A stretch of DNA of 23,727 nucleotides from a virus: the IMG/VR virus record IMGVR_UViG_3300009419_000097, positions 1 through 23,727 of that record; one strand, written 5' to 3'. Position 1 is the first letter of the stretch. Every line of letters begins with the position of its first letter. The notes below the pieces were generated by a model, which was not told the origin of the DNA, ran no database searches, and was given only the letters and a program-made list of their open reading frames with translations. Shown here one piece after another: positions 1,483 through 14,267 of the stretch. A program made the translations under genes and the position numbers.

Positions 1483-1498
1483 GTGTCTTCAAAGACAC
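1483..1498. repeat. palindrome copy 1 (variant GTGTCTTCAAAGACAC)
   Basis: One central base differs from the consensus; the GTGTC/GACAC arms are intact. It is intergenic, between the stop at 1499 and the start at 1474, so it falls in the leader of the 57-residue gene. Confidence 0.85.
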
Positions 1499-1594
1499 TC
1501 AGAACTTCCCTGTTTTGTTGAACAGCATAGCGTTCATGCACTGCCGGTCCAACCAACGGAAGAAGTTCCAAGTCTTTTTGATTGCTTTAATCAT
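1499..1594 (-). CDS. 31-residue basic peptide
   Basis: The frame MIKAIKKTWNFFRWLDRQCM...NKTGKF is lysine/arginine and aromatic rich. The start is immediately preceded by TTATATTTGAAC, a promoter-start arrangement also found at 16,336 and 21,292 on the other strand, which argues that this short frame is expressed. The stop touches the palindrome at 1483-1498. No family recognised. Confidence 0.5.
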   Translation of the reverse strand: MIKAIKKTWNFFRWLDRQCMNAMLFNKTGKF

Positions 1595-1597
1595 GTT

Positions 1598-1605
1598 CAA
1601 ATATA
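1598..1605 (-). promoter_or_regulatory. -7 element TATATTTG directly before a start codon
   Basis: TATATTTG-AAC-ATG follows the TAA stop of the gene at 1607. The same block (TTAATTATATTTG, then AAC ATG) occurs at 16,331 and 21,287 on the plus strand. No clear -33 TTTG was seen at the usual spacing. A transcript from here would have almost no leader. Confidence 0.5.
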
Positions 1606-1606
1606 A

Positions 1607-2014
1607 TTAACCGAATACAATTTCTCCCATCAACAAGTATTGAAACACAGCATCTGCATCTTCTGCGTCAAAGTCCTCGTTCAATATGTTGATCAAACAA
1701 CCAAGCACTCCCTTGTCTTCGTGTATCGTGAGCATGCGTTGAGCGATTAGGTCACGGGTCAATACCCCGAGTTCGTCTCCGCTCTCCACATCTTTCACCG
1801 GTACCTTGACATCGTATTCATGGATGGCTTTCCATGTGGCTTCAGAGAATGATCCATTGGGCACCGCGTTACGGATGGTATCGCATGTCTTGTTCGACAG
1901 GTAGGCCCAGTAGTTACTGCCACCCTCGAGTGCCGTAACGAATAGGTCTTCCATTGTTTGATAGGCGATGGGTAACATCACCATTAGTTCTTTTTGTTCA
2001 GTGTTTGCTTTCAT
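1607..2014 (-). CDS. conserved phage hypothetical protein (ALEGGSNYW family)
   Basis: A 135-residue protein with TALEGGSNYWAYLS at residues 28-41, a signature I associate with a widespread but uncharacterised phage family. The rest is mixed helix and strand, with the acidic stretch NEDFDAEDADAVFQYLLMGEIVFG at the end. There is no signal peptide or membrane span. It overlaps the upstream 59-residue membrane gene by 17 nt. Function unknown. Confidence 0.75.
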   Translation of the reverse strand: MKANTEQKELMVMLPIAYQTMEDLFVTALEGGSNYWAYLSNKTCDTIRNAVPNGSFSEATWKAIHEYDVKVPVKDVESGDELGVLTRDLIAQRMLTIHEDKGVLGCLINILNEDFDAEDADAVFQYLLMGEIVFG

Positions 2015-2177
2015 TTTTTTCTTGTTTTAGTTTGTATAATCCTACCATTGCGATGAATAGGAACGACAACCCTATGCCACCGGCTATGATTTGTGCAGTG
2101 ATTGGATAGTGAACGATGCACCACCCGTAAAGTAATCCGCTAAGGATTGTCGTAAATACTATCGCAAAGTTTCTCAT
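1998..2177 (-). CDS. 59-residue membrane protein with two predicted spans
   Basis: Begins MRNFAIVFTTILSGLLYGWC and ends KLKQEKNESKH. Two hydrophobic segments (about residues 4-22 and 28-48, IAGGIGLSFLFIAMVGLY) are joined by a short VHYP turn, followed by a positively charged tail. It fills what would otherwise be a gap of about 170 nt and overlaps the next start by 17 nt, the same overlap style as its neighbours. A small phage membrane protein of unknown role. A holin-like function is possible but unsupported, since the lysis genes lie at the other end. Confidence 0.65.
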   Translation of the reverse strand: MRNFAIVFTTILSGLLYGWCIVHYPITAQIIAGGIGLSFLFIAMVGLYKLKQEKNESKH

Positions 2178-2182
2178 GGTCT

Positions 2183-2377
2183 CTAGCTGATTGATTTGTA
2201 GATACGAGTCGAGCCATCATCCATGATGGACATCTGAGGTTTGAACTTCTTCATTGCAGTTTGCACCGTGTCGATGAACCGCTCTCTGTTGTCGGCGTCC
2301 AAGTACAACAAGCGATCGATGATCTCTTGCACAAACTCGCGCCTCTCTTCTACCGATGTAATTCTTTTGCGTCTCAT
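2183..2377 (-). CDS. 64-residue basic hypothetical protein
   Basis: Begins MRRKRITSVEERREFVQEII and contains a helical central part (RLLYLDADNRERFIDTVQTAMKKFKPQM). The basic N-terminus could contact nucleic acid. The start overlaps the upstream stop by ATGA (2374-2377), indicating translational coupling. No family recognised. Confidence 0.65.
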   Translation of the reverse strand: MRRKRITSVEERREFVQEIIDRLLYLDADNRERFIDTVQTAMKKFKPQMSIMDDGSTRIYKSIS

Positions 2378-2631
2378 ATGCGGTCCTCCTTTTCTATCTC
2401 CTTGTTGTCGATCAATAGCACATCGCCAAGCAGGAGAATGCCAGCCATGCTTGTCGCTATTGGGTTAGGTTCCAATCCAATCAGCGCTGCGTCTTCGTTA
2501 ACGCAGAACGTCATGTCGAGATTTGTACGGACATACTCGATGTAACCACCGACTGCCTTTTGCTTTTTGTTTAGGTCTGATGCGTCATACTTGTCGATCA
2601 CATCACCGTGTCTTGTAATTAGTATTGCCAT
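2374..2631 (-). CDS. DUF3846-like protein
   Basis: An 85-residue protein: MAILITRHGDVID..., then QKAVGGYIEYVRT, FCVNEDAALIGLEPNPIATSM and LLLGDVLLID. The order VGGYIE - VNEDA - GLxxNPxAT - GxxLL(I)GDVLLI is characteristic of the DUF3846 family of phage and plasmid proteins, whose function is unknown. The ATG at 2629-2631 gives the typical family start MAILI and leaves a 4-nt gap after the upstream stop. A longer start at 2652 would overlap the neighbour. Confidence 0.75.
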   Translation of the reverse strand: MAILITRHGDVIDKYDASDLNKKQKAVGGYIEYVRTNLDMTFCVNEDAALIGLEPNPIATSMAGILLLGDVLLIDNKEIEKEDRI

Positions 2632-2635
2632 GTTC

Positions 2636-3124
2636 TTAGTGTTTGATTTCAAATTCTACATAATCTTTGTCGAGACTCCGGCGAGCCAAGACTTTGTAAT
2701 CGTCATTGGTAATCTCAGTCAGCGCACCATACGAGTAGCCATCGGCACCATACTGGGATTGGTTGGTAATATACGACATCGCACAATACCACTTGTCTCC
2801 CGGCTTGATTATCTTGTACTGCTCTCTTGGCATACCCTGTACTGCTTTGTCATTCCTGTAATCTTCGCCATCGAAGAAACCAATCTGCTCGCTATGCACC
2901 TTGATGATTAGCTGATCAGGCGTCGACAACATGATGCGTGAATCCTCATGTGTGGCTTTCAACTCTTGGATGTTCATGCTTAAATCGAACGACACATCAA
3001 CACACCACACACCCTTGCGGACACGCTCGAATACTAAGCAATCTACTGTGTCGCTGACGACACAAGGATCTGATACTACCATGATGCCTGACTTGTTAAT
3101 AAACTTGAATCGTAAGTTAATCAT
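2636..3124 (-). CDS. hypothetical protein, 162 residues
   Basis: Starts MINLRFKFINKSGIMVVSD. Sequence character is beta-rich and soluble, with several aromatic residues near the C-terminus (YGADGYSYGALTEITNDDYKVLARRSLDKDYVEFEIKH). No signal peptide, membrane span or catalytic motif is visible. Its start overlaps the upstream stop (ATGA at 3121-3124). Not recognised. Confidence 0.7.
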   Translation of the reverse strand: MINLRFKFINKSGIMVVSDPCVVSDTVDCLVFERVRKGVWCVDVSFDLSMNIQELKATHEDSRIMLSTPDQLIIKVHSEQIGFFDGEDYRNDKAVQGMPREQYKIIKPGDKWYCAMSYITNQSQYGADGYSYGALTEITNDDYKVLARRSLDKDYVEFEIKH

Positions 3125-3393
3125 CTTCCACCAAATATTGAAAAGTTATTTGTCATTGCCAGTGTAATGATTGAATTAGTTGTGTCTTCAGATACCAATA
3201 AATCACGCTTCAATATGTCCTCATCAAAGTACCTTGAGCATAGCACATACCGCACCAACTCTGCCTCTATGTACTGATTGATTCTCATGCGCACCTCGTC
3301 ACTGGCTTCCTTGTACAAACTTCTTTGCTTTACAATTGATACCGCGTAGTTTACCTCGCGAATTAATAATGATTCTAAATCTTTTATTGTCAT
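3121..3393 (-). CDS. hypothetical helical protein, 90 residues
   Basis: The start at 3391-3393 (MTIKDLESLLIREVNYAVSI) follows an A/T-rich leader. An alternative ATG at 3447 would overlap the upstream gene by 39 nt. The protein is mostly helical. Near the C-terminus it has LLVSEDTTNSII, resembling the SVFEDTTN peptide encoded by the palindrome elsewhere; the DNA there (around 3180-3195) may be a decayed copy. Function unknown. Confidence 0.65.
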   Translation of the reverse strand: MTIKDLESLLIREVNYAVSIVKQRSLYKEASDEVRMRINQYIEAELVRYVLCSRYFDEDILKRDLLVSEDTTNSIITLAMTNNFSIFGGR

Positions 3394-3407
3394 ATGTCTT
3401 CTATTAA

Positions 3408-3659
3408 TTAACCTTCCCAAAGCATGATCGTTCCCGGATCGTGCCATTCAAAATACCATCCATTGATCTCTACAAAATTGTGGAGTTTAGGATTGACACC
3501 AAAGGTATCGTACCACCTCTCGCTGTGGTAGTTGAACCATTGGTCGGTGCCCTCTGCCGATATCCAAACACCGCCAATGGCGCCGTTGAATTCTTCGGTG
3601 ATGCCCACCACATTAACGCCCTTCTCTTGAAGGGATTTGATAATTTGTTTCCTTGTCAT
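3408..3659 (-). CDS. hypothetical protein, 83 residues
   Basis: MTRKQIIKSLQEKGVNVVGITEEF... is followed by a tryptophan-rich half (GVWISAEGTDQWFNYHSERWYD ... NGWYFEWHDPGTIMLWEG). The composition suggests a small alpha/beta domain with an aromatic surface. It starts 2 nt downstream of the preceding stop. I do not recognise the family. Confidence 0.65.
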   Translation of the reverse strand: MTRKQIIKSLQEKGVNVVGITEEFNGAIGGVWISAEGTDQWFNYHSERWYDTFGVNPKLHNFVEINGWYFEWHDPGTIMLWEG

Positions 3660-3661
3660 AG

Positions 3662-4390
3662 TTATGAGTGATTGAAAATGTATACTGATTTACTACCCTT
3701 CCCTCTTACACCACTGCACAGCGCACACTTACTGCATGTACTCTTGAACCCTGCCTCGCTTGATGCCGGGCAGTTGACCATGCCGTCATGCTTGGTGTGG
3801 GTGCTGTCGTCCATGAACGCGCGCCATCCCATCGTCTCTGCTGTCTTGGTCTGATCTACATCATGCGTCGATGCCATAAAGAAATCTCGGTAGCCGTACG
3901 CCCATGGCTTGTCCCATTGGTGTGTGTACCCCGACCATGTCTTGGCTACCACTGAGATACATCTCAACAATGAGATTGGTATGAGTGATGGCTCGCCATA
4001 GGTACCGAACCGTACATACCTTCTGTTGCACATCGCCACCACATCCGCACCGATCTGCTCGTTGTATTTTGGTATGTCGTCCCATGATTGGTATTGGTTA
4101 CCGATGCTACGCAGTTGCGATAGCATACCCGAATACTGCATCCGCTTGTGAGTGTAGCAACCCTTCAACTCTGCGCCATTGCTCATTGCATATGGGCAGT
4201 CCAAACATACATCGCCGTCCTTGCTGAAGAACGATTGCATGCTCGTCTTGGATTGTGCATTCTCAAACTGATCTCTACTGTAGTGGTAGGTCTGAATGAT
4301 CTTCTCACCTTTGGGTGCGATCTTGTCGTTCGTGGTCTTGTCCAAACGGACAACACACAGGGTGTCCCCGATAATAAATTCAGTTCTCAT
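3662..4390 (-). CDS. cysteine-rich phage protein, GP88-like
   Basis: A 242-residue protein with two cysteine clusters: CLDCPYAMSNGAELKGCYTH (about residues 62-81) and NCPASSEAGFKSTCSKCALC (about residues 206-225), followed by a basic tail. The arrangement resembles phage GP88/DUF7227-type proteins, where the C-terminal cysteines are thought to bind metal; the assignment is from memory of the motif and is tentative. It is the first gene after a strong promoter (4500-4531) and a leader of about 100 nt that carries two hairpins. Confidence 0.65.
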   Translation of the reverse strand: MRTEFIIGDTLCVVRLDKTTNDKIAPKGEKIIQTYHYSRDQFENAQSKTSMQSFFSKDGDVCLDCPYAMSNGAELKGCYTHKRMQYSGMLSQLRSIGNQYQSWDDIPKYNEQIGADVVAMCNRRYVRFGTYGEPSLIPISLLRCISVVAKTWSGYTHQWDKPWAYGYRDFFMASTHDVDQTKTAETMGWRAFMDDSTHTKHDGMVNCPASSEAGFKSTCSKCALCSGVRGKGSKSVYIFNHS

Positions 4391-4412
4391 TTGTTTTGCT
4401 TTTGTTACGATG

Positions 4413-4432
4413 CCTCACCAAACTTGGTGAGG
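4413..4432 (-). repeat. second hairpin of composite leader element A
   Basis: CCTCACCAAACTTGGTGAGG is a 9-bp inverted repeat with a 2-nt centre, located 4 nt downstream (on the leftward transcript) of the palindrome at 4437-4452. Three other palindrome copies have an unrelated-sequence hairpin at the same place. Confidence 0.75.
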
Positions 4433-4436
4433 ATTT

Positions 4437-4452
4437 GTGTCTTCGAAGACAC
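4437..4452. repeat. palindrome copy 2 (exact GTGTCTTCGAAGACAC)
   Basis: Located in the untranslated leader of the GP88-like gene, 47 nt downstream of the -7 box at 4500-4507. Confidence 0.9.
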
Positions 4453-4499
4453 GACACTGAGCAACCAACAAAAGATGCCGTGTCCTCTCCAACACAGTA

Positions 4500-4531
4500 C
4501 AAAGGTAATACAATTCTTCTACAATTCCAAA
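4500..4531 (-). promoter_or_regulatory. Bacteroidota-type promoter for the leftward genes from 4390
   Basis: On the minus strand, TTTG (4528-4531), 20 nt, then TACCTTTG (4500-4507): a full match to the TTTG/TAnnTTTG consensus. Predicted transcription start is near 4493, leaving a leader of about 100 nt with no ATG before 4390. Confidence 0.75.
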
Positions 4532-4553
4532 TTGCACCCCCATTTGTACACGG

Positions 4554-4778
4554 TTATAGATTGTCGATGTCCTCCAATCTTGATTCTTGTTCGTCCAAGT
4601 AGTCAGAATAGTAATCGAGCAGTTCCATTGTGTAGTCGGGCTCGAGTCCTCTGTCTTGCAATATCTCTTCTGGGTCTGCCCCATGGTCAATGAGTCTACA
4701 CATCGTGCGTATCTCTCTCGCCGCGTCGCACTGCCCGTGGTCATCCTCCCGGCATAGTGCTTCTAATAGTGTCATCAT
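4554..4778 (-). CDS. acidic hypothetical protein, 74 residues
   Basis: Begins MMTLLEALCREDDHGQCDAA and ends in an acidic segment (DYYSDYLDEQESRLEDIDNL). It is helical and strongly negative, with GADPEEILQDRGLEPDYTMELLDYY in the middle. The start overlaps the upstream stop by ATGA (4775-4778). The strong promoter at 4500-4531 lies just past its 3' end. Function unknown; a DNA-mimic role would be speculation. Confidence 0.65.
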   Translation of the reverse strand: MMTLLEALCREDDHGQCDAAREIRTMCRLIDHGADPEEILQDRGLEPDYTMELLDYYSDYLDEQESRLEDIDNL

Positions 4779-5476
4779 GATAAGTTATGTTGGTCTAATA
4801 ATTCTTGTGGTACTGGTTCGTATTCGCTGTAGTCGTAGTAGTAGCCGGCCTCGACACCTTCTCGGACAGGGCTTTCGCATATATCACTCATCAACTTGGT
4901 GATCTGCCCGTCGTCGGTTTCTATGCCCGTGCCTTCCCACTGCGGTGCTTCGTACTCCTCGAACAGTTCGAACACCCCATTCTCGTACTGCACATAGCCA
5001 CCCCACCCCTGCTCTTCCTCGTAGTGGAGGATGAAGTTGGGGAAGTCCACCGCCAATGCCTCCAATATAATCAGATTGAATGGTGCCCATGCCGTGCTGA
5101 ATCGGATCGTGTCGCCATCCACCTCGTGGTCGTAGCATCCCCACTTGGTGCCCCAATTTTGGAACGCCCAATCATACCAATTGTCCACCCCATACTTTCG
5201 CATCAACTCCACCTGCATTTTCTTGGTGATGACTTTCTTTCTGCGTACGCCATACGGATCGTCCTCGTCGGTGATCTTGGCATTCTCCTTCATGATTTTG
5301 TTGTACTCGCGCTGAGTTACCACCTTTGTTGGCGCTGTGGTATTACGAATGTCGTCCGGCATGGGTCGGTAGTACCCGCACAATCCGTTAAGTGTTGAGG
5401 CAATGACCTCAAGTTTCTGTCTCTGCTCGTCACTCAAATCCGTGAACGAGATCCTGTTGTAAACGTGGTTTGGCAT
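4775..5476 (-). CDS. YubB/DUF1281-like ferredoxin-fold protein
   Basis: A 233-residue protein that starts MPNHVYNRISF and has WAFQNWGTKWGCYDHEV in the middle, followed by FSTAWAPFNLIILEALAVDFP and a GWGGYVQYENGVFELFEEYE strand region. The MPNHVxN start, WGTKWxxY(D) and F.TAW.PP pattern is that of the DUF1281/Api92-like (YubB ferredoxin-like) proteins of plasmids and phages; function unknown. It begins 4 nt after the preceding gene ends and overlaps the next start by ATGA. Confidence 0.75.
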   Translation of the reverse strand: MPNHVYNRISFTDLSDEQRQKLEVIASTLNGLCGYYRPMPDDIRNTTAPTKVVTQREYNKIMKENAKITDEDDPYGVRRKKVITKKMQVELMRKYGVDNWYDWAFQNWGTKWGCYDHEVDGDTIRFSTAWAPFNLIILEALAVDFPNFILHYEEEQGWGGYVQYENGVFELFEEYEAPQWEGTGIETDDGQITKLMSDICESPVREGVEAGYYYDYSEYEPVPQELLDQHNLS

Positions 5477-5480
5477 AGTG

Positions 5481-5996
5481 TTATCTATTTAATTTGTGGT
5501 ATAGTTGGGTGATGGCGTTCTTGAATGTATCTCCTTTCATTAGGCCATCGAGTGAAGGGTATTCTATGGTGCGGATGTAATATATTAAGGTTGGCATCAG
5601 TTCGTACTGGCGCAGTCCGTTCTTGGCACGAAACAATGTTGGTGCTTTCGCGCTGATTGTGAACCGCTCGTCGTACCCTTGAGTCTTTCCGAACCAAACA
5701 GTTTCACCGCAATAGTCCGAGCCGGGGCTCCTGTGAAGCGGATCGCAGTCCACCTCAATACCCAACTTCTCGCACTCGGATATCAAGTACTTCATGTCCT
5801 GCTCGAATTGCTTGCTCAACTCAGCATAGATGGCTCGGTTCTTGATTTCAATGGCCTCGAAGTCACGCTTGGTCTGATTGATTTCGTCGAGCAAAATGTC
5901 CGCGAATGATGTTGGCTTGGGGTAATCGTTCATCGCCATAAATTCTTCCGTAATCTTGGCGATCAGTTGTTGTTGGTTTTCAGTTAATTGTTTCAT
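5481..5996 (-). CDS. hypothetical protein with coiled-coil N-terminal half
   Basis: A 171-residue protein. Residues 1-85 are helical (LTENQQQLIAKITEEFMAM ... EIKNRAIYAELSKQFEQDMKYLISECEKLGIEV); the C-terminal part is mixed, with the motif GSDYCGETVWFGKTQGYDERF. No signal or membrane span. It overlaps its upstream neighbour by 17 nt. Not recognised. Confidence 0.65.
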   Translation of the reverse strand: MKQLTENQQQLIAKITEEFMAMNDYPKPTSFADILLDEINQTKRDFEAIEIKNRAIYAELSKQFEQDMKYLISECEKLGIEVDCDPLHRSPGSDYCGETVWFGKTQGYDERFTISAKAPTLFRAKNGLRQYELMPTLIYYIRTIEYPSLDGLMKGDTFKNAITQLYHKLNR

Positions 5997-6174
5997 GTTG
6001 TTGTTCTTTGTCCCACAAGTTTGCTCGTAGGCTTACCTCTAAATTGTCTACATACACCTCGATGCATTCATCGAGTTGCTCGTTCCATACCTCGACGTAT
6101 ACGCCGAATACTGTGGCACCGGCAGTAAATCCCTTACCTTGGTACCACGCCACTGCTTTTTGTTCCTGTGTCAT
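5980..6174 (-). CDS. small hypothetical protein, 64 residues
   Basis: MTQEQKAVAWYQGKGFTAGATVFGVYVEVWNEQLDECIEVYVDNLEVSLRANLWDKEQQHETIN reads as a small beta domain (strand-turn repeats) between charged ends. The start overlaps the upstream stop by ATGA at 6171-6174. No family recognised. Confidence 0.6.
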   Translation of the reverse strand: MTQEQKAVAWYQGKGFTAGATVFGVYVEVWNEQLDECIEVYVDNLEVSLRANLWDKEQQHETIN

Positions 6175-6404
6175 ATCGTGTGAATTAATACGGCTCCGCT
6201 TTCGTTTTGGTAGAACATGGCTCCGCCGTCATTGCCTTCGTCATCTGCTTGTGGGATGAGAAGAGATCCGTCGGTGAACCTGATTACGAGTGGCCTGCTA
6301 TGCCACCCTGCCTCGTCCGCTTCTTCTTTGGTCATGTAGCGTACGCTTGAGATTTTCTTTGCCGCTAAGAACATGAAGTTGTTTGCGTATTGTTGGTCTG
6401 TCAT
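6171..6404 (-). CDS. small hypothetical protein, 77 residues
   Basis: MTDQQYANNFMFLAAKKISSVRY... is followed by RPLVIRFTDGSLLIPQADDEGNDGGAMFYQ. The strand-rich LVIRFTDGSLL/ADDEGNDGGA part resembles small phage proteins with a single beta-sheet domain, but I cannot name a family. Overlaps at both ends (ATGA) place it in the same operon. Confidence 0.65.
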   Translation of the reverse strand: MTDQQYANNFMFLAAKKISSVRYMTKEEADEAGWHSRPLVIRFTDGSLLIPQADDEGNDGGAMFYQNESGAVLIHTI

Positions 6405-6955
6405 GATATTTTATTTAAGATTGCTTCCTTGATTTCTGCCGTGGTAATTCTTGACAAGTAACTGTCCAATTCGTCCTTGAGTCCGCTCGTTTCGTGGTCG
6501 TGTCCATAGTAGCCGAGGTTTGTGTCGACCAACTCAGTGTCTTCGAAGACACTCACTCCAAACATCTCGCCGTTCATGTAGTGGCTGAATGTTTTTAGTT
6601 CGCTTGTCGCCCACTTATACGCCTGCTCTGCCGTGCCTGATTCTAGCACGATAAAGCCAACCTTGCCCGAGTCCCACTTGCAGTCGAATGAATTGATTGA
6701 GAATGCCAACCCGCTGTGGTCGTACATAAATACTGGGTATACCCACATATACTGAAGTTGCAATGCCTCTTCCATCTCAGCCCACGATGCGTAGTCGTTG
6801 TGGTCAATGCCAATCTCGTTGGGGAAATTGTACCGTTTGTGGAATAGGGCAAACTTGGTCTCATTGTCCCACTCTCGTGGGCTGTCTGCAAACTGATCGT
6901 AGAATATCTCTACCGAGATATTGTCTACACTGATTTCTTGTTGTGTCATAATCAT
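6401..6955 (-). CDS. conserved phage protein with palindrome-encoded insert
   Basis: A 184-residue protein. The core WVYPVFMYDHSGLAFSINSFDCKWDSGKVGFIVLE (about residues 72-106) matches a widespread phage family with the WDSGQVGFI-type motif; function unknown. Around residue 137 the peptide SVFEDT is encoded exactly by the 16-bp palindrome (6537-6552), in the segment between MFG and ELVDT. The start at 6955 overlaps the upstream stop by ATGA; a second ATG two codons later is equally possible. Confidence 0.75.
   Translation of the reverse strand: MIMTQQEISVDNISVEIFYDQFADSPREWDNETKFALFHKRYNFPNEIGIDHNDYASWAEMEEALQLQYMWVYPVFMYDHSGLAFSINSFDCKWDSGKVGFIVLESGTAEQAYKWATSELKTFSHYMNGEMFGVSVFEDTELVDTNLGYYGHDHETSGLKDELDSYLSRITTAEIKEAILNKIS
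6537..6552. repeat. palindrome copy 3 (exact), inside a gene
   Basis: Read in frame as SVFEDT in the C-terminal third of the gene at 6401-6955. Confidence 0.9.
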
Positions 6956-7626
6956 TTTGTGTCTTCGAAGACACTTCTTTTGGTCATCATATCTATTAAC
7001 TCGTCACTTGTGTATGTGATACTTGGATCGTCCGAGTCCACCGCTTCGATGAACCCCTCGCGTAGATCTTCGTCAATCTCATAACTGTCCATGTACTCAC
7101 GCAAGTATTCGTGTATGCTATACTCCTCGTGTGTGGTGAACAACTTGGCATTGGTATACCCACCCCGTGCATCGCACCCACCATGGATCTGCAACAGCAA
7201 GTACACGTCGCCGTTGATCTCAACCCAACTGCCCTGCAGTATCTGCGATAGATCCGAGTCCCCATTGTAGGTGTTGAATGTGTACCCCACCTTGACCTCG
7301 AACTTGGATTTGAGCCAATCCCATTGTGCCTTGCTCACACCATACACCTCGTCATCCGCATCCCAATCCCTGCATGGCATGGCGTTGAACTCTTCACACA
7401 ATTCGTCCATGTCCAACTGCGACAGGAAGTGGAACACCGATACAGTTCTCTCCAAATAGTTGCCACTCTTGTGGTAGGTGTACATCTCCTCGGGTTCTGA
7501 CTCGAAGTCCTCGATTGTCCGTGCTTGGTTTCTCTCCCATGCCCTGCCGTATGCACCCCCACTATCGAGGGGGTGACGGCCGGTGTTCTCGGTGAGCATG
7601 TCGAAAATTAGTTCCTTGATTCGCAT
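6952..7626 (-). CDS. conserved phage hypothetical protein, 224 residues
   Basis: Begins MRIKELIFDMLTENTGRHPLDSGGAYGRAWERN. The GRHxLDSGGAYGRxWERN motif (residues 16-33) is one I recall from large phage hypothetical proteins. A beta-rich segment (GDVYLLLQIHGGCDARGGYTNAKLF) and an acidic C-terminal region follow. The last eight residues, RSVFEDTK, come from a palindrome copy placed at the stop codon (6959-6974), so the repeat forms the C-terminus. It overlaps the upstream gene by 19 nt. Confidence 0.75.
   Translation of the reverse strand: MRIKELIFDMLTENTGRHPLDSGGAYGRAWERNQARTIEDFESEPEEMYTYHKSGNYLERTVSVFHFLSQLDMDELCEEFNAMPCRDWDADDEVYGVSKAQWDWLKSKFEVKVGYTFNTYNGDSDLSQILQGSWVEINGDVYLLLQIHGGCDARGGYTNAKLFTTHEEYSIHEYLREYMDSYEIDEDLREGFIEAVDSDDPSITYTSDELIDMMTKRSVFEDTK
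6959..6974. repeat. palindrome copy 4 (exact), at a gene end
   Basis: Encodes the last codons (SVFEDT-K-stop) of the gene at 6952-7626 and lies just upstream of the start at 6955. Confidence 0.9.
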
Positions 7627-7943
7627 GACAATTCATCTCTTAAATTAACCATCAACTGATAAGCCCAATCCTTGATCGTGCCTCCAACAGAGTATTCCCA
7701 TTCCAACTCGACTGATATCTCCATTCCACATACACTTGTGTCCATCTCCACCATGTCCGTGAGATACATGTCTGACCTGAAGTTTTCCGACATCTCCTCT
7801 GCGATGCGTCGAATCACCTCGTCGGTGAGTGTCATCGAAGACACTTGTGTTGCCTTGGCTTCTGCAAGTAATGCTTGCATCTGCTGTAAGTTTGCCTCGG
7901 TGCGTTGCACCATTTCTTCCATGATTTGAATTTGGTTGTTCAT
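7608..7943 (-). CDS. hypothetical protein with N-terminal coiled coil
   Basis: A 111-residue protein, with start MNNQIQIMEEMVQRTEANLQ at 7941-7943. The in-frame extension to 8003 would be mostly palindrome-derived and overlap the upstream gene end. Residues 1-32 form a coiled coil (MEEMVQRTEANLQQMQALLAEAKATQ). The peptide VSSMTL that follows is encoded by a variant palindrome (7829-7844), just where the helix ends. Then comes a soluble alpha/beta region. No family recognised. Confidence 0.65.
   Translation of the reverse strand: MNNQIQIMEEMVQRTEANLQQMQALLAEAKATQVSSMTLTDEVIRRIAEEMSENFRSDMYLTDMVEMDTSVCGMEISVELEWEYSVGGTIKDWAYQLMVNLRDELSCESRN
7829..7844. repeat. palindrome copy 5 (variant GTGTCATCGAAGACAC)
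   Basis: Inside the gene at 7608-7943, read as VSSMT. This variant is the exact reverse complement of copy 7 at 8458, while the outer arms stay intact. Confidence 0.85.
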
Positions 7944-7956
7944 ATTTTTTTTTGTT

Positions 7957-8256
7957 TTAATTGGTTGCGTTTGTTGTGTCTTCGAAGACACTTTCTTTCT
8001 CATATTCTACAAGTGGCTTGTCAGTGCCGTCAACTTCGTTGAACACTTGTATTAGTTCGTTTACATACGTCACGTAGAAGTCGGGATGGAACATGGAGAT
8101 ACGCCCATTAGCCGTGTCTTCTCTGTCCTTGGCGTAAATTGCCGGGATTTGTTCCACCAACTCCATCGTGTCGTGTTGGAGCCTCTGCATTAAGTACGAT
8201 GCGTAGATCGGATGCAGGTTTCGGATGGCTTTCGCCAGTTTGTCTTGTGATTTCAT
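7957..8256 (-). CDS. hypothetical protein, 99 residues, palindrome-encoded C-terminus
   Basis: The start MKSQDKLAKAIRNLHPIYAS at 8254-8256 overlaps the upstream stop by ATGA; the in-frame ATG at 8292 is therefore less likely. The protein is mainly helical (YLMQRLQHDTMELVEQIPAIYAKDRED), with YVNELIQVFNEVDGTDK later. The last residues, ESVFEDTTNATN, derive from the palindrome at 7976-7991. Function unknown. Confidence 0.65.
   Translation of the reverse strand: MKSQDKLAKAIRNLHPIYASYLMQRLQHDTMELVEQIPAIYAKDREDTANGRISMFHPDFYVTYVNELIQVFNEVDGTDKPLVEYEKESVFEDTTNATN
7976..7991. repeat. palindrome copy 6 (exact), at a gene end
   Basis: Encodes SVFEDT shortly before the stop at 7957 and sits about 35 nt upstream of the next start at 7943. 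Confidence 0.9.
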
Positions 8257-8606
8257 AGTTCTATTTCTTTGGTTGTTACATAGTATTCCCAATATGCGTC
8301 GGGTTCAACGCGTTGCAATTCGTCGGCAATCTCCTTGGCTTTCTGCTCACTTGTGCATACTCGCATTAGTTGTGGCACTGATCCCACCTCCCATGAGTCA
8401 GCACTGCTGTCAACGCCCATCACCAAGTAAACTTTGGTGATTGGCTCGGGCGTCGGAGTGTCTTCGATGACACTTTCTGTTAGTATTCCACCCCACTCAA
8501 GTGCCAACTTCTCCAAGGATGGAAGCAATGCCATGTACACCCACTCATCTTGGATTGTGGCCACGCATTCCGCATGGACGCTCGTTTCTATATATACTTT
8601 TATCAT
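8253..8606 (-). CDS. hypothetical protein, 117 residues
   Basis: MIKVYIETSVHAECVATIQDEWVYMALLPSLEKLALEWGG is followed by ESVIEDTPTPEPITKVYLV. The SVIEDT peptide is encoded by a variant palindrome (8458-8473) and forms a linker, with the PTPEP that follows, between two domains. The C-terminal domain (VYLVMGVDSSADSW ... SEQKAKEIADELQ ... YWEYYVTTKEIEL) has the pattern of a small alpha/beta fold. Its start overlaps the RadC-like stop by one base (TAATG). Confidence 0.65.
   Translation of the reverse strand: MIKVYIETSVHAECVATIQDEWVYMALLPSLEKLALEWGGILTESVIEDTPTPEPITKVYLVMGVDSSADSWEVGSVPQLMRVCTSEQKAKEIADELQRVEPDAYWEYYVTTKEIEL
8458..8473. repeat. palindrome copy 7 (variant GTGTCTTCGATGACAC)
   Basis: In-frame linker SVIEDT in the gene at 8253-8606. 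It has the same variant sequence as copy 5 but in the opposite orientation. Confidence 0.85.
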
Positions 8607-9064
8607 TACAATAAGCCCTCCTCGGCCATGGATGTGTGTGAATCTAATGTGAGAATGATGTGGTCGACCAACTTGATGTCGAACAGTTCAAGCCCACGCT
8701 TGACACGATCGGTAATTTGGATGTCCGCATCCGACGCCTGTGTCTTGCCACTCGGGTGGTTGTGCATCATAATTACTGCGGTTGAATTGCACATGACCGC
8801 ACCTTGCACCAAGCCCTTGATGTCAACCACCGTGGACGTGGTGTTGCCCTTTGACAACTGCAAGAACCCAATGGGGCGGTTCGCATTGTTGAGATACCCT
8901 ACCCACATTTCTTCGTGGTGTTCCATCACGTCTTCGGGAAAGATACCACGGAAAAAGTTCGCCGCGTGTTCGGAGTTCCTAATCTGAGTTTTGATGAGTT
9001 TCTCATCCAAGTTGGTGCGTCGGTATCCAATACTGACCTCACCCAAGAACCATTTGTTTTTCAT
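8606..9064 (-). CDS. radC: RadC-like JAMM/MPN+ domain protein
   Basis: A 152-residue protein covering the RadC C-terminal domain only. The JAMM metal motif is complete: E51 (HHEEMWVGYL), H101 and H103 in MMHNHPSG, and D114 in SDAD, with the expected ten residues between H103 and D114. The LxxxIxLxDHIIL segment near the end is also typical (RGLELFDIKLVDHIILT). The N-terminal helix-hairpin-helix domain of chromosomal RadC is missing, as in many phage and plasmid versions. The family is historically called a DNA-repair protein, but its biochemical role is unsettled. Confidence 0.9.
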   Translation of the reverse strand: MKNKWFLGEVSIGYRRTNLDEKLIKTQIRNSEHAANFFRGIFPEDVMEHHEEMWVGYLNNANRPIGFLQLSKGNTTSTVVDIKGLVQGAVMCNSTAVIMMHNHPSGKTQASDADIQITDRVKRGLELFDIKLVDHIILTLDSHTSMAEEGLL

Positions 9065-9092
9065 ATGTTGCTTTTGTTTTGGTATGCCTTGG

Positions 9093-9299
9093 TTACAAGT
9101 CCGCGGTGCGTCCTTGTGTCTTCGAAGACACTTTGTCTTTTATTTCTTGTGGCGTTTCCATTACACGTATCGTGCCTATCATCGTGGATACGATGGAGCC
9201 AGTGCCGTCTTCGTTTGATACATAGTAAATTGCCTCGGGGTTTACCAATACTCTTTGGATACCACCACTTGCCATGATTTGTTTGAGTGTGATTAACAT
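9093..9299 (-). CDS. FlbD-like small protein with palindrome-encoded C-terminus
   Basis: A 68-residue protein starting MLITLKQIMASGGIQRVLVNPEAIYYVSNEDGTGS. The order LITL - N-P-E-AI-Y - I-V-S - V-METPQEI resembles FlbD-like small proteins (I.VTRLNG..FVLN...I..ie..PDT.I.L..G....V.E). This is a fold-level guess; flagellar function is not implied. After KDKV the C-terminus SSKTQGRTADL comes from the palindrome at 9116-9131. The ATG at 9297-9299 is chosen because it overlaps the upstream gene by only 7 nt. Confidence 0.65.
   Translation of the reverse strand: MLITLKQIMASGGIQRVLVNPEAIYYVSNEDGTGSIVSTMIGTIRVMETPQEIKDKVSSKTQGRTADL
9116..9131. repeat. palindrome copy 8 (exact), near a gene end
   Basis: Read as VSSKTQ in the last codons of the gene at 9093-9299. 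It shares the flank GCGTCCTT with copy 11, but the second hairpin is absent or reduced to CGC-GGT-GCG. Confidence 0.9.
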
Positions 9300-9583
9300 A
9301 ATTGTTTTGTTAGTTGGGTGGTGTGGGTTTCGATTAAACCATAGGCGTTGCATACATCCTTTGCGAATACTTCTATCTCAATTTGTGTCTTCGAAGACAC
9401 TTGCTCGAGTAAGTAATAATCGGCGATGGTTTGTAGCATCTCCTTGTACATACACACAGCCCGTTCACGGGTGCATTTGTTGAACGTCATCAACTGCATG
9501 ATGACCTTTTCGGTTAACGAGTACACGGCAATCTTGCCGTGTCTTTGTGTCTTCGAAGACACTTGCTTTGGTTGGTTATTCAT
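9293..9583 (-). CDS. hypothetical protein carrying two palindrome-encoded peptides
   Basis: A 96-residue protein beginning MNNQPKQVSSKTQRHGKIAVYS. VSSKTQ occurs twice (residues 8-13 and 62-67), each encoded exactly by a copy of the 16-bp palindrome (9547-9562, 9385-9400). The body between them is helical (EKVIMQLMTFNKCTRERAVCMYKEMLQTIADYYLLEQ). A strong promoter ends about 23 nt upstream of the ATG. No family recognised; the two copies could mark the edges of the helical core. Confidence 0.7.
   Translation of the reverse strand: MNNQPKQVSSKTQRHGKIAVYSLTEKVIMQLMTFNKCTRERAVCMYKEMLQTIADYYLLEQVSSKTQIEIEVFAKDVCNAYGLIETHTTQLTKQLC
9385..9400. repeat. palindrome copy 9 (exact), inside a gene
   Basis: Second VSSKTQ of the gene at 9293-9583; no adjacent second hairpin. 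Confidence 0.9.
9524..9541 (-). repeat. second hairpin of composite element B
   Basis: CACGGCAATCTTGCCGTG is an 8-bp inverted repeat with a 2-nt centre, separated by 5 nt (9542-9546) from palindrome copy 10. It lies inside the coding sequence of the gene at 9293-9583. Confidence 0.75.
9547..9562. repeat. palindrome copy 10 (exact)
   Basis: Located in codons 8-13 of the gene at 9293-9583 and 43 nt downstream of the -7 box at 9606-9613. Confidence 0.9.
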
Positions 9584-9594
9584 AGTGCTGTTTA

Positions 9595-9759
9595 TTAGAA
9601 CAATACAAAGATACTACAAAGGTATGACATTGCCAAATCTAACTGCGGATAATCCACAGCCATGAACTTGCCTTGTTTTGTTGACGTGTCCGCATCGGTT
9701 CGATGCGTCCTTGTGTCTTCGAAGACACTTGCCATGATTAATTCGTTACGTTTTGCCAT
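9595..9759 (-). CDS. 54-residue hypothetical protein
   Basis: The frame begins MAKRNELIMASVFEDTRTHR and ends LDLAMSYLCSIFVLF. It starts about 17 nt downstream of a strong promoter (9777-9808), and codons 11-16 are the palindrome (SVFEDT). Its 3' part overlaps the promoter of the next gene. The segment FMAVDYPQLDLAM resembles FITVYGSPFDLAM read from the corresponding DNA near 9800-9835, so the two regions look like duplicates. Coding status is likely but not certain. Confidence 0.45.
   Translation of the reverse strand: MAKRNELIMASVFEDTRTHRTDADTSTKQGKFMAVDYPQLDLAMSYLCSIFVLF
9606..9637 (-). promoter_or_regulatory. Bacteroidota-type promoter for the gene at 9293-9583
   Basis: TTTG (9634-9637), 20 nt, TATCTTTG (9606-9613) on the minus strand; predicted start of transcription near 9599, 16 nt before the ATG. 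A second TACCTTTG lies within the spacer. The block is repeated at 9777-9808. Confidence 0.75.
9691..9707 (-). repeat. second hairpin of composite element C
   Basis: CGCATCGGTTCGATGCG is a 7-bp inverted repeat with a 3-nt loop, 5 nt from palindrome copy 11. Its sequence is unrelated to the second hairpins of elements A, B and D. Confidence 0.75.
9713..9728. repeat. palindrome copy 11 (exact)
   Basis: Located 48 nt downstream of the -7 box at 9777-9784, inside codons 11-16 of the 54-residue frame. Confidence 0.9.
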
Positions 9760-9776
9760 CCCTTAATTGAACAATA

Positions 9777-9808
9777 CAAAGGTACTACAAAAATACTACA
9801 TTGCCAAA
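9777..9808 (-). promoter_or_regulatory. Bacteroidota-type promoter for the gene at 9595-9759
   Basis: TTTG (9805-9808), 20 nt, TACCTTTG (9777-9784) on the minus strand. It belongs to a direct repeat of about 40 bp shared with 9606-9637 (GAACAATACAAAG...ACTACAAA...ACATTGCCAAATC). Confidence 0.75.
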
Positions 9809-9830
9809 TCAAATGGCGATCCGTACACGG

Positions 9831-9953
9831 TTATGAACTGGCTGTGCCTTGCCATATAAACCACAGCAAAACGGGTTGCGTCCTTGACGATTTCACGGCA
9901 AATTTTGCCGTGCTTTTGTGTCTTCGAAGACACTTTGTGTGTGTCCTTGCCAT
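9831..9953 (-). CDS. possible 40-residue protein
   Basis: The frame MARTHTKCLRRHKSTAKFAV... crosses palindrome copy 12 in the third reading frame (CLRRH) and the hairpin at 9894-9912. It is basic. It has no clear promoter box, and an overlapping frame reads VSSKTQKHGKI, similar to VSSKTQRHGKI of the gene at 9293-9583, so this stretch may instead be a broken duplicate of that gene's start. Confidence 0.25.
   Translation of the reverse strand: MARTHTKCLRRHKSTAKFAVKSSRTQPVLLWFIWQGTASS
9894..9912 (-). repeat. second hairpin of composite element D
   Basis: CACGGCAAATTTTGCCGTG is a 9-bp inverted repeat with a 1-nt centre, 5 nt from palindrome copy 12. It is closely related to the hairpin of element B but one base pair longer. 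Confidence 0.75.
9918..9933. repeat. palindrome copy 12 (exact)
   Basis: In a weakly coding segment upstream of the last confident leftward gene cluster. No TAnnTTTG promoter was found at the expected distance upstream. Confidence 0.9.
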
Positions 9954-10190
9954 ATTTCACACACCCAAAATGGGTGTAAACTTTCCACTATATGCGGACG
10001 CAATGCGAAGTGATGCAATGCGAAGCGAAGCGGACGCGTCGTATACTTTCCACAGCCAAAATGATGGGCTATTTTAAGCCCCATTTAAGGCAATGAAATG
10101 AGGCGTTAATAGGTAGGTATACCAAAGGGAAAGATAGTTGTTTATAGGGCTTAAAATGGGCGTGAAATTGAAGCCAATATAAAACAATAA
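9954..10190. other. non-coding stretch with hairpins and short direct repeats
   Basis: No convincing gene. It contains the inverted repeat ACACCCA-AAA-TGGGTGT (9961-9977), the direct repeat GCAATGCGAAG (near 10,002 and 10,015), and GGGCT...AGCCC at about 10,066-10,080, a weak terminator-like hairpin. It separates the 246-residue gene and its terminators from the small-gene cluster on the left. Confidence 0.5.
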
Positions 10191-10208
10191 AGCCCCAATA
10201 AAGGGGCT
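10191..10208 (-). terminator. second of two tandem intrinsic terminators
   Basis: AGCCCC-AATAAA-GGGGCT. On the minus strand it is followed by TTATTGTTTTA. It backs up the hairpin at 10,248-10,270. Confidence 0.6.
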
Positions 10209-10247
10209 ATTAATTAGGGGTGTAAATTGATAGGGCTATAAACAAAA

Positions 10248-10270
10248 ATAGCCCCAATGAATGGGGCTAT
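10248..10270 (-). terminator. intrinsic terminator of the 246-residue gene
   Basis: An 8-bp inverted repeat ATAGCCCC...GGGGCTAT with a 7-nt loop, 18 nt past the stop codon at 10,289. On the minus strand it is followed by TTTTTGTTT, a good U tract. The ATAGCCC arm can also pair with GGGCTAT at 10,233-10,239, giving two mutually exclusive stems. Confidence 0.75.
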
Positions 10271-10288
10271 CTTTGTGGGTTGGTTGGG

Positions 10289-11029
10289 TTAGATTAGTTC
10301 TTTTGATACGGGCAACTTTTGTACCCGTTTCTTTTGAATTTCGCCCAAATCGGTTTGAACCTTTTTCGTTCTCACTTGCTTGGGAAGTGGGAAGGTTGAA
10401 GTTATCGAAATTGTGAGAAGTTCGAAGGCTTCGCGAATTTCAAGGGCTGTAGAATTGGTATCAAAACTTCCGTCGGTGTAAAAAGTTACTTTTATGTTCT
10501 CGAACTTAAAAGAACTTTTTGCAACCTTTTTATCTCCGCCATTACGCAAATCGCTGATACTTTCCGCATCCGTGTCCGCTTCGCCCTTGTGTTCTTCGAA
10601 GTTCTTCGCCCACGTGTTTAGGGCTTCAATAGAACGGGCAAAGTCTTTGCCGTCTTTTTCCGCCTCATCGCATTTTTTGATGAACTTGTTTACAACGTGT
10701 TTGGGTAGTTCCCCGATTTTTACAAGTTTATAGTAATACGACGCTTTGAACCCGTAAACCATTTTGATAAAGTCCGCTTTGCTAATCATTTCTTTCGACG
10801 TCGTTCCGCCATCTTTTAACTTGTTTTTGATAGATACAAAAAACTCATCAAATTGCTGTTTGGTCTGTGCCAAAAGTTGGGCAAGTTCCAAAGACGTCAT
10901 AAACCTTTGCTTTTCCGCATTGGTCACCTTTGAATTCAAGTTTTTGATAGCCACTAATGAAAGGGCTGTTTTGGTTTGTGCAGTCGCTAACATTCCATTA
11001 ACGAGGTTGCTGATTTGTTGGTTGTTCAT
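10289..11029 (-). CDS. 246-residue hypothetical protein, probable early regulator
   Basis: Begins MNNQQISNLVNGMLATAQTK. Residues 1-125 are helical and contain LAQLLAQTKQQFDEFFVSIKNKLKDGG and KADFIKMVYGFKASYYYKLVKIGELPKHVV, a segment resembling the helical DNA-binding part of DUF3102/replication-accessory proteins (feeling-your-way helix, aromatic YYYKL), though I cannot confirm this. The middle is acidic, and the C-terminus is basic (KQVRTKKVQTDLGEIQKKRVQK). It is the first and best isolated leftward gene, with its own promoter (11,054-11,084) and tandem terminators. This suits an early regulatory or replication gene. Confidence 0.7.
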   Translation of the reverse strand: MNNQQISNLVNGMLATAQTKTALSLVAIKNLNSKVTNAEKQRFMTSLELAQLLAQTKQQFDEFFVSIKNKLKDGGTTSKEMISKADFIKMVYGFKASYYYKLVKIGELPKHVVNKFIKKCDEAEKDGKDFARSIEALNTWAKNFEEHKGEADTDAESISDLRNGGDKKVAKSSFKFENIKVTFYTDGSFDTNSTALEIREAFELLTISITSTFPLPKQVRTKKVQTDLGEIQKKRVQKLPVSKELI

Positions 11030-11053
11030 TTTCTTTTTGCCTTAATGGCACTA

Positions 11054-11084
11054 CAAAGAAACTATAAAGAAATGATATAAACAA
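11054..11084 (-). promoter_or_regulatory. leftward promoter of the 246-residue gene
   Basis: TTG (11,082-11,084), 20 nt, TTTCTTTG (11,054-11,061): one mismatch to TAnnTTTG. A palindrome copy lies 25 nt upstream of the -33 element. Confidence 0.55.
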
Positions 11085-11389
11085 GCAAGGGCGTAAAAAA
11101 ATATAGTTGTGTCTTCGAAGACACACCTTAAGTTATTGAAATTCAAGCAGTTAGCGAAGTGGGGAAATTTTGGATTGTGTCGTACGGGTGTGCGAAAGGG
11201 GCGTAACCCCAATGTTTACGGGGCTTGACGTGATAAAAAAGGCAAAAAAAAGGGGCAAAAAAGGGGAAAAAGGGAGGGGGGTGTGTTGCAAAATTTCGAC
11301 TTTCGGGAAGGGGATCATCGCTGAAATGGGGGGTATTACCCCCTTGTTTAGCATATCTAACCCCCTGATTCCAAGTCTTTCAAATGCAT
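11085..11389. other. divergent control region
   Basis: No convincing gene between the leftward and rightward arms. It contains the palindrome at 11,109, a GGGGCGTAACCCC inverted repeat near 11,199-11,211, and a strand-asymmetric purine tract (about 11,230-11,285, runs of AAAAAGGGG). Confidence 0.5.
11109..11124. repeat. palindrome copy 13 (exact), rightmost
   Basis: Intergenic and upstream of the leftward promoter at 11,054-11,084, unlike copies 2, 10 and 11, which lie downstream of theirs. No second hairpin is attached. Confidence 0.9.
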
Positions 11390-12245: not shown

Positions 12246-13862
12246 ATGACATTAGGGTATTCTCCGAAAGAGTTATCATTTGACGAGCAAGGCAGGGCCA
12301 AACTTGTAAGTGGTATCAAGAAACTTTCCAAGGCTGTTAAGAGCACATTGGGGCCTAACGGCAACACGGTGTTATTGGAATCACCGAATCACACGCATGG
12401 GTTGACGGTCACCAAGGATGGTGTAACTGTTGCCAAGTCGATTGACTTGTTGGACCCGATTGAGAACTTGGCTGTAAGGATCATGAAGCAGGCGGCTGAT
12501 CGCACGGCGTCGGACGCAGGTGATGGCACGACCACAAGCATTGTGTTGACTGAGGCGATCATCATGAACGGGTTGGAGTACTTAAATGAGAAGTCGTTAA
12601 ACCGGTCGCAGTTGTTGAGGGAGTTGGTGGAGGTGAGTGAGAAGGTGGTGGAAGTGTTGAAGAAGAAGAGCAAGAAGTTGACGAACGCGATGCTTACGGA
12701 CGTGGCTACGATTTCTGCGAACAACGACAAGAGCATTGGTCAGATCATTGCGGAGGTTTACAAGGATGTGGGGAAGAATGGTATTGTGACGGTTGAGAAA
12801 AGCCAGAGCACTGAGACGATTGCCGAGACCACGTTGGGATTGAAGATTGACAGGGGGTATTTGAGTCCGTTGTTCATCAACGATCAGAAGAAGGACGAGT
12901 GCGTGTACGAGGATGTGATGGTGTTGGTGGCTGACATGGAGATTAGCAACATCTTGCAACTTGAGTTGGTATTGAAACCAATCATACAGGAGAACAAGCG
13001 GTTATTGTTGATTGCGCCATGCAATGCGAACGTTGTGAATACGTTGGCTGCGAACGTGATGAAGAACAATTTGAAGATTGTGGCTATCCAGCCGCCGAGT
13101 TTTGGGTACAAGCAGCACGAGTTGATGCAAGACATTGCGTTGAGTGTGGGTGCGACCTACTATAGCGAGAAGACGGGTGATGATTTGAGCCTTGTGAACT
13201 ACTCTGACTTGGGTCATGCGGCCCGGGTGATCGTGTCGAATGACAAGACCATCTTGTTGAAGTCCAATTTAAAGGCAAATCAGGCGGCGATCGATGAGAG
13301 AGTGGCTCAATTGTGGCAGGCACACAGCCAAGCGACGAAGAAGGCGGACAAGGACTTCCTGCTAGAACGCATAGCCTCCCTCACGGGAGGAATAGGCGTG
13401 ATCTACGTGGGTGGAAACACCGACTTGGAGCAGAAAGAGTTGTACGATCGTGTCGATGACGCGGTATGTGCGGTAAGATCTGCGTTAGAGGAGGGCATTT
13501 TGCCGGGCGCAGGACGCGCGTTACACGAGATTGCTACCCAACACCCCATCTTCCAAGAGATCTTCGCTCACAGCGCAGAGAAATCAGCCGCAATCGCCAT
13601 TTTGAGAGAGGCATTGCGTGCGCCGTTGGATCAGATTCTACAGAATGCCGGTATTAATCCGCAGGACGTGTACGATAACACGGAGGAGAGTGGTTTCGGG
13701 TACAACTTGAAGACGGGGCAGCACGGTGACTTGATCAAGATGGGTGTAATTGACCCGTTGAAGGTGACAAGGTGCGCGCTTCAGAACGCCATTAGCGTGG
13801 CTGTAACCATTTTGTCTACGAATGCTATCGTGACGATGGCAAGAACCTACGAGGCACAGTAG
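12246..13862 (+). CDS. groEL: phage GroEL-like chaperonin
   Basis: A 538-residue, full-length group I chaperonin. The equatorial ATP site is intact: TLGPNGNTV (34-42), TKDGVTVAKSI with D58 matching E. coli D52, DAGDGTTTS with D93 matching D87, and VDDAVCAVRSALEEGI with D405 matching D398. The usual GAGGG is GAGR (GILPGAG). The intermediate and apical regions are recognisable (QPPSFGYKQHELMQDIA, DLGHAARVIV, LERIASLTGGIGVIYVG), with a non-canonical apical face. The flexible Gly-Gly-Met tail is absent; it ends MARTYEAQ. It presumably folds phage structural proteins, with the GroES-like product encoded downstream. Confidence 0.97.
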   Translation: MTLGYSPKELSFDEQGRAKLVSGIKKLSKAVKSTLGPNGNTVLLESPNHTHGLTVTKDGVTVAKSIDLLDPIENLAVRIMKQAADRTASDAGDGTTTSIVLTEAIIMNGLEYLNEKSLNRSQLLRELVEVSEKVVEVLKKKSKKLTNAMLTDVATISANNDKSIGQIIAEVYKDVGKNGIVTVEKSQSTETIAETTLGLKIDRGYLSPLFINDQKKDECVYEDVMVLVADMEISNILQLELVLKPIIQENKRLLLIAPCNANVVNTLAANVMKNNLKIVAIQPPSFGYKQHELMQDIALSVGATYYSEKTGDDLSLVNYSDLGHAARVIVSNDKTILLKSNLKANQAAIDERVAQLWQAHSQATKKADKDFLLERIASLTGGIGVIYVGGNTDLEQKELYDRVDDAVCAVRSALEEGILPGAGRALHEIATQHPIFQEIFAHSAEKSAAIAILREALRAPLDQILQNAGINPQDVYDNTEESGFGYNLKTGQHGDLIKMGVIDPLKVTRCALQNAISVAVTILSTNAIVTMARTYEAQ

Positions 13863-14261: not shown

Positions 14262-14267
14262 CAACAT

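Follow-up and report, generated by a model that had tools for sequence, protein, structure and literature searches.

A dispersed 16-bp palindrome as the candidate operator of an undescribed helix-turn-helix-like regulator in environmental Bacteroidota phages

The operators of KorB and ParB, and parS sites, are dispersed palindromes of 13–16 bp that are bound by helix-turn-helix (HTH) dimers, some of which regulate at a distance. Among the temperate cluster A mycobacteriophages, the repressors of L5 (gp71) and TipsytheTRex act at stoperators, 13-nt sites without symmetry, each recognised by a repressor monomer and aligned with the direction of transcription (PMC9283540). Type III hammerhead ribozymes, Rfam family RF00008, are known from bacteria and phages (PMC3088659). 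Here, IMG/VR virus record IMGVR_UViG_3300009419_000097 was analysed as the whole 23.7-kb contig (23,727 nucleotides, 'the window'), whose left gene block is transcribed leftward and contains many copies of a 16-bp palindrome. With a probability of roughly two in three, this palindrome is a two-fold symmetric DNA operator for a dimer of the 246-amino-acid HTH-like protein encoded at 10289–11029, which would belong to a new family of phage regulators. Across the sequences compared, protein and site co-occur, co-vary and sit together, and the sites are kept at the nucleotide level; we infer that the regulator itself, and not another linked factor, binds the sites as a dimer.

The first-pass annotation had described ten exact copies of the palindrome and three with a single central change; all were confirmed, with the GTGTC and GACAC arms intact in 13/13. 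Their number was beyond chance, as claimed: dinucleotide shuffles gave 0.06 ± 0.24 matches (allowing up to three mismatches, maximum 1), compared with the 13 seen. The copies had also been described as confined to the leftward arm, which was true insofar as no equally good copy occurs in the rightward module, but an arms-only match at 16224 lies inside that module. Since full sites occur at the aligned codons of both genes in relatives, the arms-only matches at 3048 and 16224 were interpreted as variant or decayed sites, and confinement is not absolute. The sites are as follows, with a strand where one was assigned.

1483–1498, minus strand: copy with one central change, GTGTCTTTGAAGACAC in the sense of the leftward genes; immediately 3' of a TGA stop, with the next ATG 8 nt on.
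3048–3063: arms-only variant GTGTC-GCTGAC-GACAC (GTGTCGCTGACGACAC) inside the gene at 2636–3124; the aligned codons in relatives G007 and G008 hold the full-type GTGTCATCAAAGACAC.
4437–4452: exact copy, intergenic; TACCTTTG promoter element 47 nt upstream, ATG of the gene at 3662–4390 46 nt downstream.
6537–6552: exact copy inside the gene at 6401–6955; 16/16 identical in homologs, with flanks about 69% identical.
6959–6974: exact copy in the last codons of the gene at 6952–7626, adjoining the start of the next gene; a 15-bp candidate operator stands at the equivalent place in G007.
7829–7844: copy with one central change inside the gene at 7608–8003; retained in G002, G007 and G008.
7976–7991: exact copy where two genes meet, at the 3' end of 7957–8292.
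8458–8473: copy with one central change inside the gene at 8253–8606.
9116–9131: exact copy in the last codons of the open reading frame (ORF) at 9093–9353.
9385–9400: exact copy inside the ORF at 9293–9583.
9547–9562: exact copy 7 codons past the ATG of the ORF at 9293–9583 and 43 nt past a TATCTTTG promoter element; in G008, GTGTCGTTACGACAC stands at the corresponding position instead.
9713–9728: exact copy 48 nt past a TACCTTTG promoter element.
9918–9933: exact copy, located downstream of the regulator gene.
11109–11124: exact copy about 80 bp before the regulator ATG, upstream of the presumed regulator promoter.
16224–16239: arms-only relic GTGTC-GAGTCA-GACAC (GTGTCGAGTCAGACAC) in the gene at 15999–16334, rightward module; a full site stands at those codons in at least 10 related contigs.

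The same 16-mer was present in 67 IMG/VR stretches, several contigs being multi-copy, and so was not private to the phage of the window. The first-pass annotation had named absence from related phages, or equal density in a host chromosome, as grounds against a phage-specific element; in both respects the opposite was observed, the system recurring in dozens of related phages while a prophage search found the regulator homolog in 0 of 84,980 bacterial and archaeal genomes. The general form of the site was GTGTC-N6-GACAC, of which many contigs from related phages had 2–19 copies per genome, and its centre, as read from contigs with the 16-mer, was mostly [TCA]T[CT][GA]A[ATG], usually TTYRAA. 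In 13 contigs analysed, there were 5–19 arm matches per contig against 0.01–0.05 expected, and spacings other than N6 were essentially absent, bar the 15-bp form in G007 and G008. When a TTYRAA-type centre was fixed, 467 distinct sites had perfect arms and 15 had one mismatch, where 0.28 were expected from scrambled arms; no compensatory arm pair was found in this set. Of 511 distinct sites, 337 were intergenic, though the median sequence was 82% coding, and many lay 0–20 nt past a stop and 10–30 nt ahead of a start; these positions depend on a gene caller trained on pooled contigs of like GC content, whose start choices are uncertain.

Sites within coding sequence were 94% identical at the nucleotide level among relatives, compared with 68% in their flanks. 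Within groEL, the site occupied the same codons in 37 of 78 homologs and the remaining homologs differed by substitution only; therefore, sites arise in place and not via insertion. This bears on one of three candidates named in the first-pass annotation, a mobile palindromic (REP/RPE-like) element spreading through insertion, which the near-identical dispersed copies, some of them inside reading frames, would fit. The comparison of homologous genes with and without the site, which that annotation had suggested, gave codon-for-codon alignments without an indel; moreover, the repeat stops at 16 bp, has no target duplication, and its sequence tracks the linked protein. A mobile element was rejected on these grounds as highly improbable, the aligned homologs indicating that sites evolve through substitution rather than insertion. 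The operator candidate of the same annotation gained from the co-varying protein family described below, while its third candidate, an RNA hairpin, held only as an overlay in relatives, where intergenic copies precede a hammerhead ribozyme, and not in the window.

The presumed regulator is encoded thus:

10289–11029, minus strand: regulator gene, 246 amino acids, of an undescribed family; predicted HTH-like segment at residues 84–125 and predicted C-terminal strand-strand-strand-helix domain.

Its AlphaFold2 model (mean pLDDT 82.7) comprised a helical N-terminal part, three helices (84–92, 96–106 and 110–125) arranged like an HTH, an acidic linker and the C-terminal domain. Searches by sequence and by fold gave no credible match in Pfam, PHROG or PDB, and the fold search matched three viral proteins of unknown function. 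When the window regulator was the query, no match was found in the phage database; a relative from G014 retrieved one deposited homolog, UOF82534.1, which is annotated as a hypothetical protein in the circular podovirus MW202828. The family is previously undescribed and lacks curated annotation. Sites mark both ends of the regulator unit and are nearly absent from its interior; in relatives' loci these bracketing sites were mostly 205–290 bp ahead of the ATG and 3–35 nt past the stop.

An all-against-all ORF comparison identified 10289–11029 as the most widely shared ORF, found in every compared contig except G011, which is truncated. Eighty loci were fetched through the protein alone and submitted to a blind, de novo palindrome search, in which GTGTC-N6-GACAC, or the same site seen from inside, ranked first 75 times; four of the other five loci had fewer than three copies, and one had GTCCG-N6-CGGAC. 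Conversely, among contigs fetched by the 16-mer, the regulator was present in 21 of 25 with at least four sites and in 1 of 22 with fewer; three of the four site-rich contigs without it are 15–37 kb, leaving G019 as the real exception. G001 shares only the regulator ORF with the window, at 29% identity, yet uses the same site.

Divergent regulators went with changed palindromes, in GTCCG, GTCTG, 15-bp and GTTAAC-centred forms. GTCCG arms were used in G098 and L185. A scrambled GTCTG palindrome, GTCTGTTCGAACAGAC, had been meant as a null control and was abandoned as such, having turned out to be the putative operator used by a divergent clade. Multiple copies were confined to three contigs, G089–G091, all of which carry a divergent regulator homolog, with 15, 16 and 3 GTCTG sites. 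In MW202828, GTGTCGTTAACGACAC occurred 14 times, in most cases a few nt past a stop and 16–23 nt before a start. A 15-bp GTGTCGTNACGACAC stood in G007 and G008 where the window has GTGTCTTCGAAGACAC, for example 7 codons past the start of the gene at 9583. Phylogenetic analysis placed the GTCCG and GTCTG regulators in one clade (support 0.95), and residue 101, in the predicted recognition helix, was lysine in nearly all GTGTC regulators, aspartate or glutamate in four of the five GTCCG/GTCTG regulators, and leucine in the fifth.

The association of protein and site is by linkage, and a different linked factor, such as phage or host transcription machinery, might read the site while the 246-amino-acid protein is a mere passenger of the module. 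This is improbable given that switches to GTCTG and GTCCG arms go together with changes in the predicted recognition helix of this very protein, that it is all G001 has in common with the window, and that the related phages elemoF and Panino, searched over 50 kb each, had neither a regulator match nor a comparable palindrome. A centromere-like or genome-organising site (ParB/parS-, KorB- or Noc-like), serving segregation, packaging or replication, was considered about as improbable. A palindrome of 16 bp, dispersed over the genome and with a pyrimidine-purine step at its dyad, would suit such a role, and the recognition segment of the regulator resembles, by eye, a ParB-type HTH. However, a ParA-type ATPase (PF13614) was found in 0 of 43 records; Pfam, PHROG and PDB gave no credible match to ParB, including its CTPase/N-terminal domain; the sites favour intergenic positions downstream of promoters; and no tyrosine integrase was found in 50 contigs (serine integrases were not searched for), so that there would be no stable maintenance to serve.

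The leftward block carries TTTG/TAnnTTTG promoters of the Bacteroidota type, among them the following elements near sites:

4500–4507, minus strand: TACCTTTG promoter element predicted from the consensus, upstream of the copy at 4437.
9606–9613, minus strand: TATCTTTG promoter element predicted from the consensus, upstream of the copy at 9547, TTTG at -33.
9777–9784, minus strand: TACCTTTG promoter element predicted from the consensus, upstream of the copy at 9713.
11054–11061, minus strand: presumed regulator promoter TTTCTTTG, an imperfect match to the Bacteroidota TAnnTTTG; relatives have TATATTTG at the equivalent place.

Promoters within 60 bp of a site pointed towards it about four times as often as away; peaks in promoter distance at 27–30 and 56–59 nt partly reflect orthologous promoters in related phages and are not independent. 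In 61 of 62 loci, the upstream site of the regulator fell between divergent genes, and it was upstream of the regulator promoter where one was visible; the case for its being untranscribed rests on consensus promoters, of which the regulator-side element was detected in some 60% of loci and the leftward element is weak.

In many relatives, numerous intergenic sites were followed by CTGATGAG...CGAAA. An alignment of 21 such sequences fitted a type III hammerhead, its three helices covarying around CUGANGA...GAAA and NUH, with 96.6% of cells paired and 12 of 14 pairs showing double changes, and one relative's hammerhead passed the Rfam RF00008 gathering score (49.2 bits against 48.5). A covariance model produced 141 matches (E < 1e-6) in 1.56 Mb, but none in MW202828, and none in either the window or the contigs most closely related to it; the Rfam scan of the window returned only a tmRNA and a tRNA, with no match at the palindromes. 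The palindrome lay within 40 nt upstream, mostly 1–4 nt, of 103 among 139 distinct hammerheads, and an unrelated hairpin took the upstream position in 24 of the remaining 36. Thus, the ribozyme unit appears to need a hairpin, while the GTGTC arms would be needed for something else, presumably the regulator. Beside ribozymes, 37 centres read as TTCAAA-type in the sense direction and none was reversed.

The hammerheads were situated at L110:11578–11633 and about 138 other places in L107–L186, L218, L216 and L185, in the early region, with up to about five per 20-kb locus. Type I-like motifs (GGTTAACTGATGAG..CGAAAC) were seen by eye directly 3' of genes (L206:1889–1904, 3195, 4357 and 5749; L158:12143; L185:6112); an Rfam search of L206 and L197 listed no type I-like hammerhead. 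The cultured phage elemoF (NC_055853.1, L227:17864–17921, minus strand), which is without the operator, had a single weaker match of 39.6 bits. A search of open-access full text found no description of hammerheads that recur throughout the early region of a phage in association with a protein-operator palindrome. In the window, a second, different inverted repeat came within about 5–10 nt after several sites (9695–9712, 9530–9546, 9893–9910 and 4419–4436; for example CACGGCAAgaTTGCCGTG), and is possibly the counterpart of the hammerhead unit in this clade.

As a rival reading, the regulator might instead bind the transcribed hairpin GUGUC-UUYRAA-GACAC and thereby act on translation, on the stability of mRNA or on cleavage by the ribozyme. 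The hairpin often falls 10–30 nt ahead of an initiation codon or at the 3' end of an mRNA, pairing is extended at intergenic sites (z -13) with the sense strand the more stable, the palindrome directly precedes most hammerheads, and in G089 and G090 the GTCTG operator sits, by eye, where stem III belongs in a type I-like hammerhead. However, the arms do not co-vary within any genome, and the stem was extended chiefly at ribozyme-linked sites (46/51), less so at other tandem intergenic sites (43/105) and genic sites (11/67; shuffled flanks, 25%), while no extended stem was seen by eye in the window copies. Outside ribozyme contexts, centres with a C.A mismatch and a U.G wobble were equally common (25 and 23). 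A stoperator-like orientation bias (TTCAAA versus TTTGAA) at all sites was also entertained and dropped, being absolute only beside ribozymes (37:0), partial in tandem gaps (51:26) and absent from divergent gaps (18:20). The equal frequency of C.A and U.G centres, the weak stem extension, the divergent-gap site and the nucleotide-level conservation in coding sequence together favour recognition of double-stranded DNA. Consequently, an RNA operator was regarded as a minority prospect, and a sole RNA-level function of the palindrome is unlikely.

With the palindrome as a DNA operator, the effect of binding, including silencing at gene boundaries, may be envisaged from the positions of the sites. 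The regulator would be made from its own host-type promoter, early in lytic infection, and would occupy sites at gene boundaries, past stops and before starts, and just downstream of early promoters. There it could block, dampen or terminate transcription, thereby shutting down the early gene block, and it would limit its own unit, both ends of which are marked by sites. In relatives, intergenic sites would additionally be transcribed into the hairpin before a self-cleaving hammerhead, such that one inverted repeat might serve as DNA operator and RNA end-hairpin. More speculatively, this would constitute a boundary element read twice, by the regulator in DNA for early shut-off and by the hammerhead, which would cut polycistronic early mRNA at the same boundary, coupling binding and processing at many junctions; this coupling is conceivable, though doubtful at present.

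Several observations weigh against the operator reading. G019 (L208–L210, 55.7 kb) has 13 GTGTC-N6-GACAC sites and no detectable regulator, and co-occurrence inside a single lineage of phages owes something to common descent. Only approximately three to four independent arm switches are seen, and G007 retains eight 16-bp sites beside nine 15-bp sites. The regulator matched no PDB fold, so the HTH assignment rests on predicted secondary structure and a sequence pattern. Ribozyme-linked sites are constrained as RNA, given their fixed orientation and an excess of U.G over C.A centres (8 versus 2), so an RNA function is possible there. Finally, mid-gene sites in late genes fit a pure silencer of early promoters and gene boundaries poorly.

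To the right of the leftward block lie groEL, tmRNA and tail-type genes. The phage GroEL is encoded at 12246–13862, and a probable GroES at 14377–14634; directly 3' of groEL is the tmRNA (13928–14262, tag GNVELSTMAFEDAMSFVSNEYKVAA), with a possible tRNA just behind it (Rfam only). A RadC-like JAB-domain protein is encoded in the early block at 8606–9064 (PF04002, E = 4.7e-33). The G014 portal matched phages of Flavobacterium, Cellulophaga, Maribacter and Tenacibaculum, which agrees with the GroEL-bearing marine Bacteroidetes phages related to Cellulophaga phi38:1, known as group 2 (PMC5332604). These phages probably infect Flavobacteriia lytically.

The operator reading would provide a likely function for an unannotated protein family that occurs widely among Bacteroidota phages of the environment. 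It would also offer a specificity code ready for use, in which at least four operator types are paired with helix sequences. It also suggests that dispersed, genome-wide operators are not confined to temperate phages. If true, the coupling of operator and hammerhead would give these ribozymes, which mostly lack an assigned role, a testable job, that of cutting phage mRNA at regulated gene boundaries.

Among known systems, stoperators, at which the bound protein stops elongating RNA polymerase, are, by analogy, the most similar in mode of action. Both have many copies of one short site throughout the genome, often in short intergenic gaps, one phage-encoded DNA-binding protein (predicted, in the present case), and site variants that track protein variants. 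Unlike stoperators, the sites here are 15–16-bp palindromes that follow no firm rule of orientation except beside ribozymes. The phages give no indication of lysogeny, and the regulator has no detectable similarity to the stoperator repressor. KorB and ParB differ in site sequence, in having a ParA partner, and in giving no sequence or fold match to the present protein. The symmetric site and the co-variation with a predicted recognition helix are those of a dimeric HTH regulator and its operator. The present phages resemble phi38:1-related phages and Elemovirus (Flavobacterium) in portal homology and groEL, and differ from elemoF and Panino in their palindrome and regulator. The ribozymes that follow the operator in relatives are, by covariation, true type III hammerheads.

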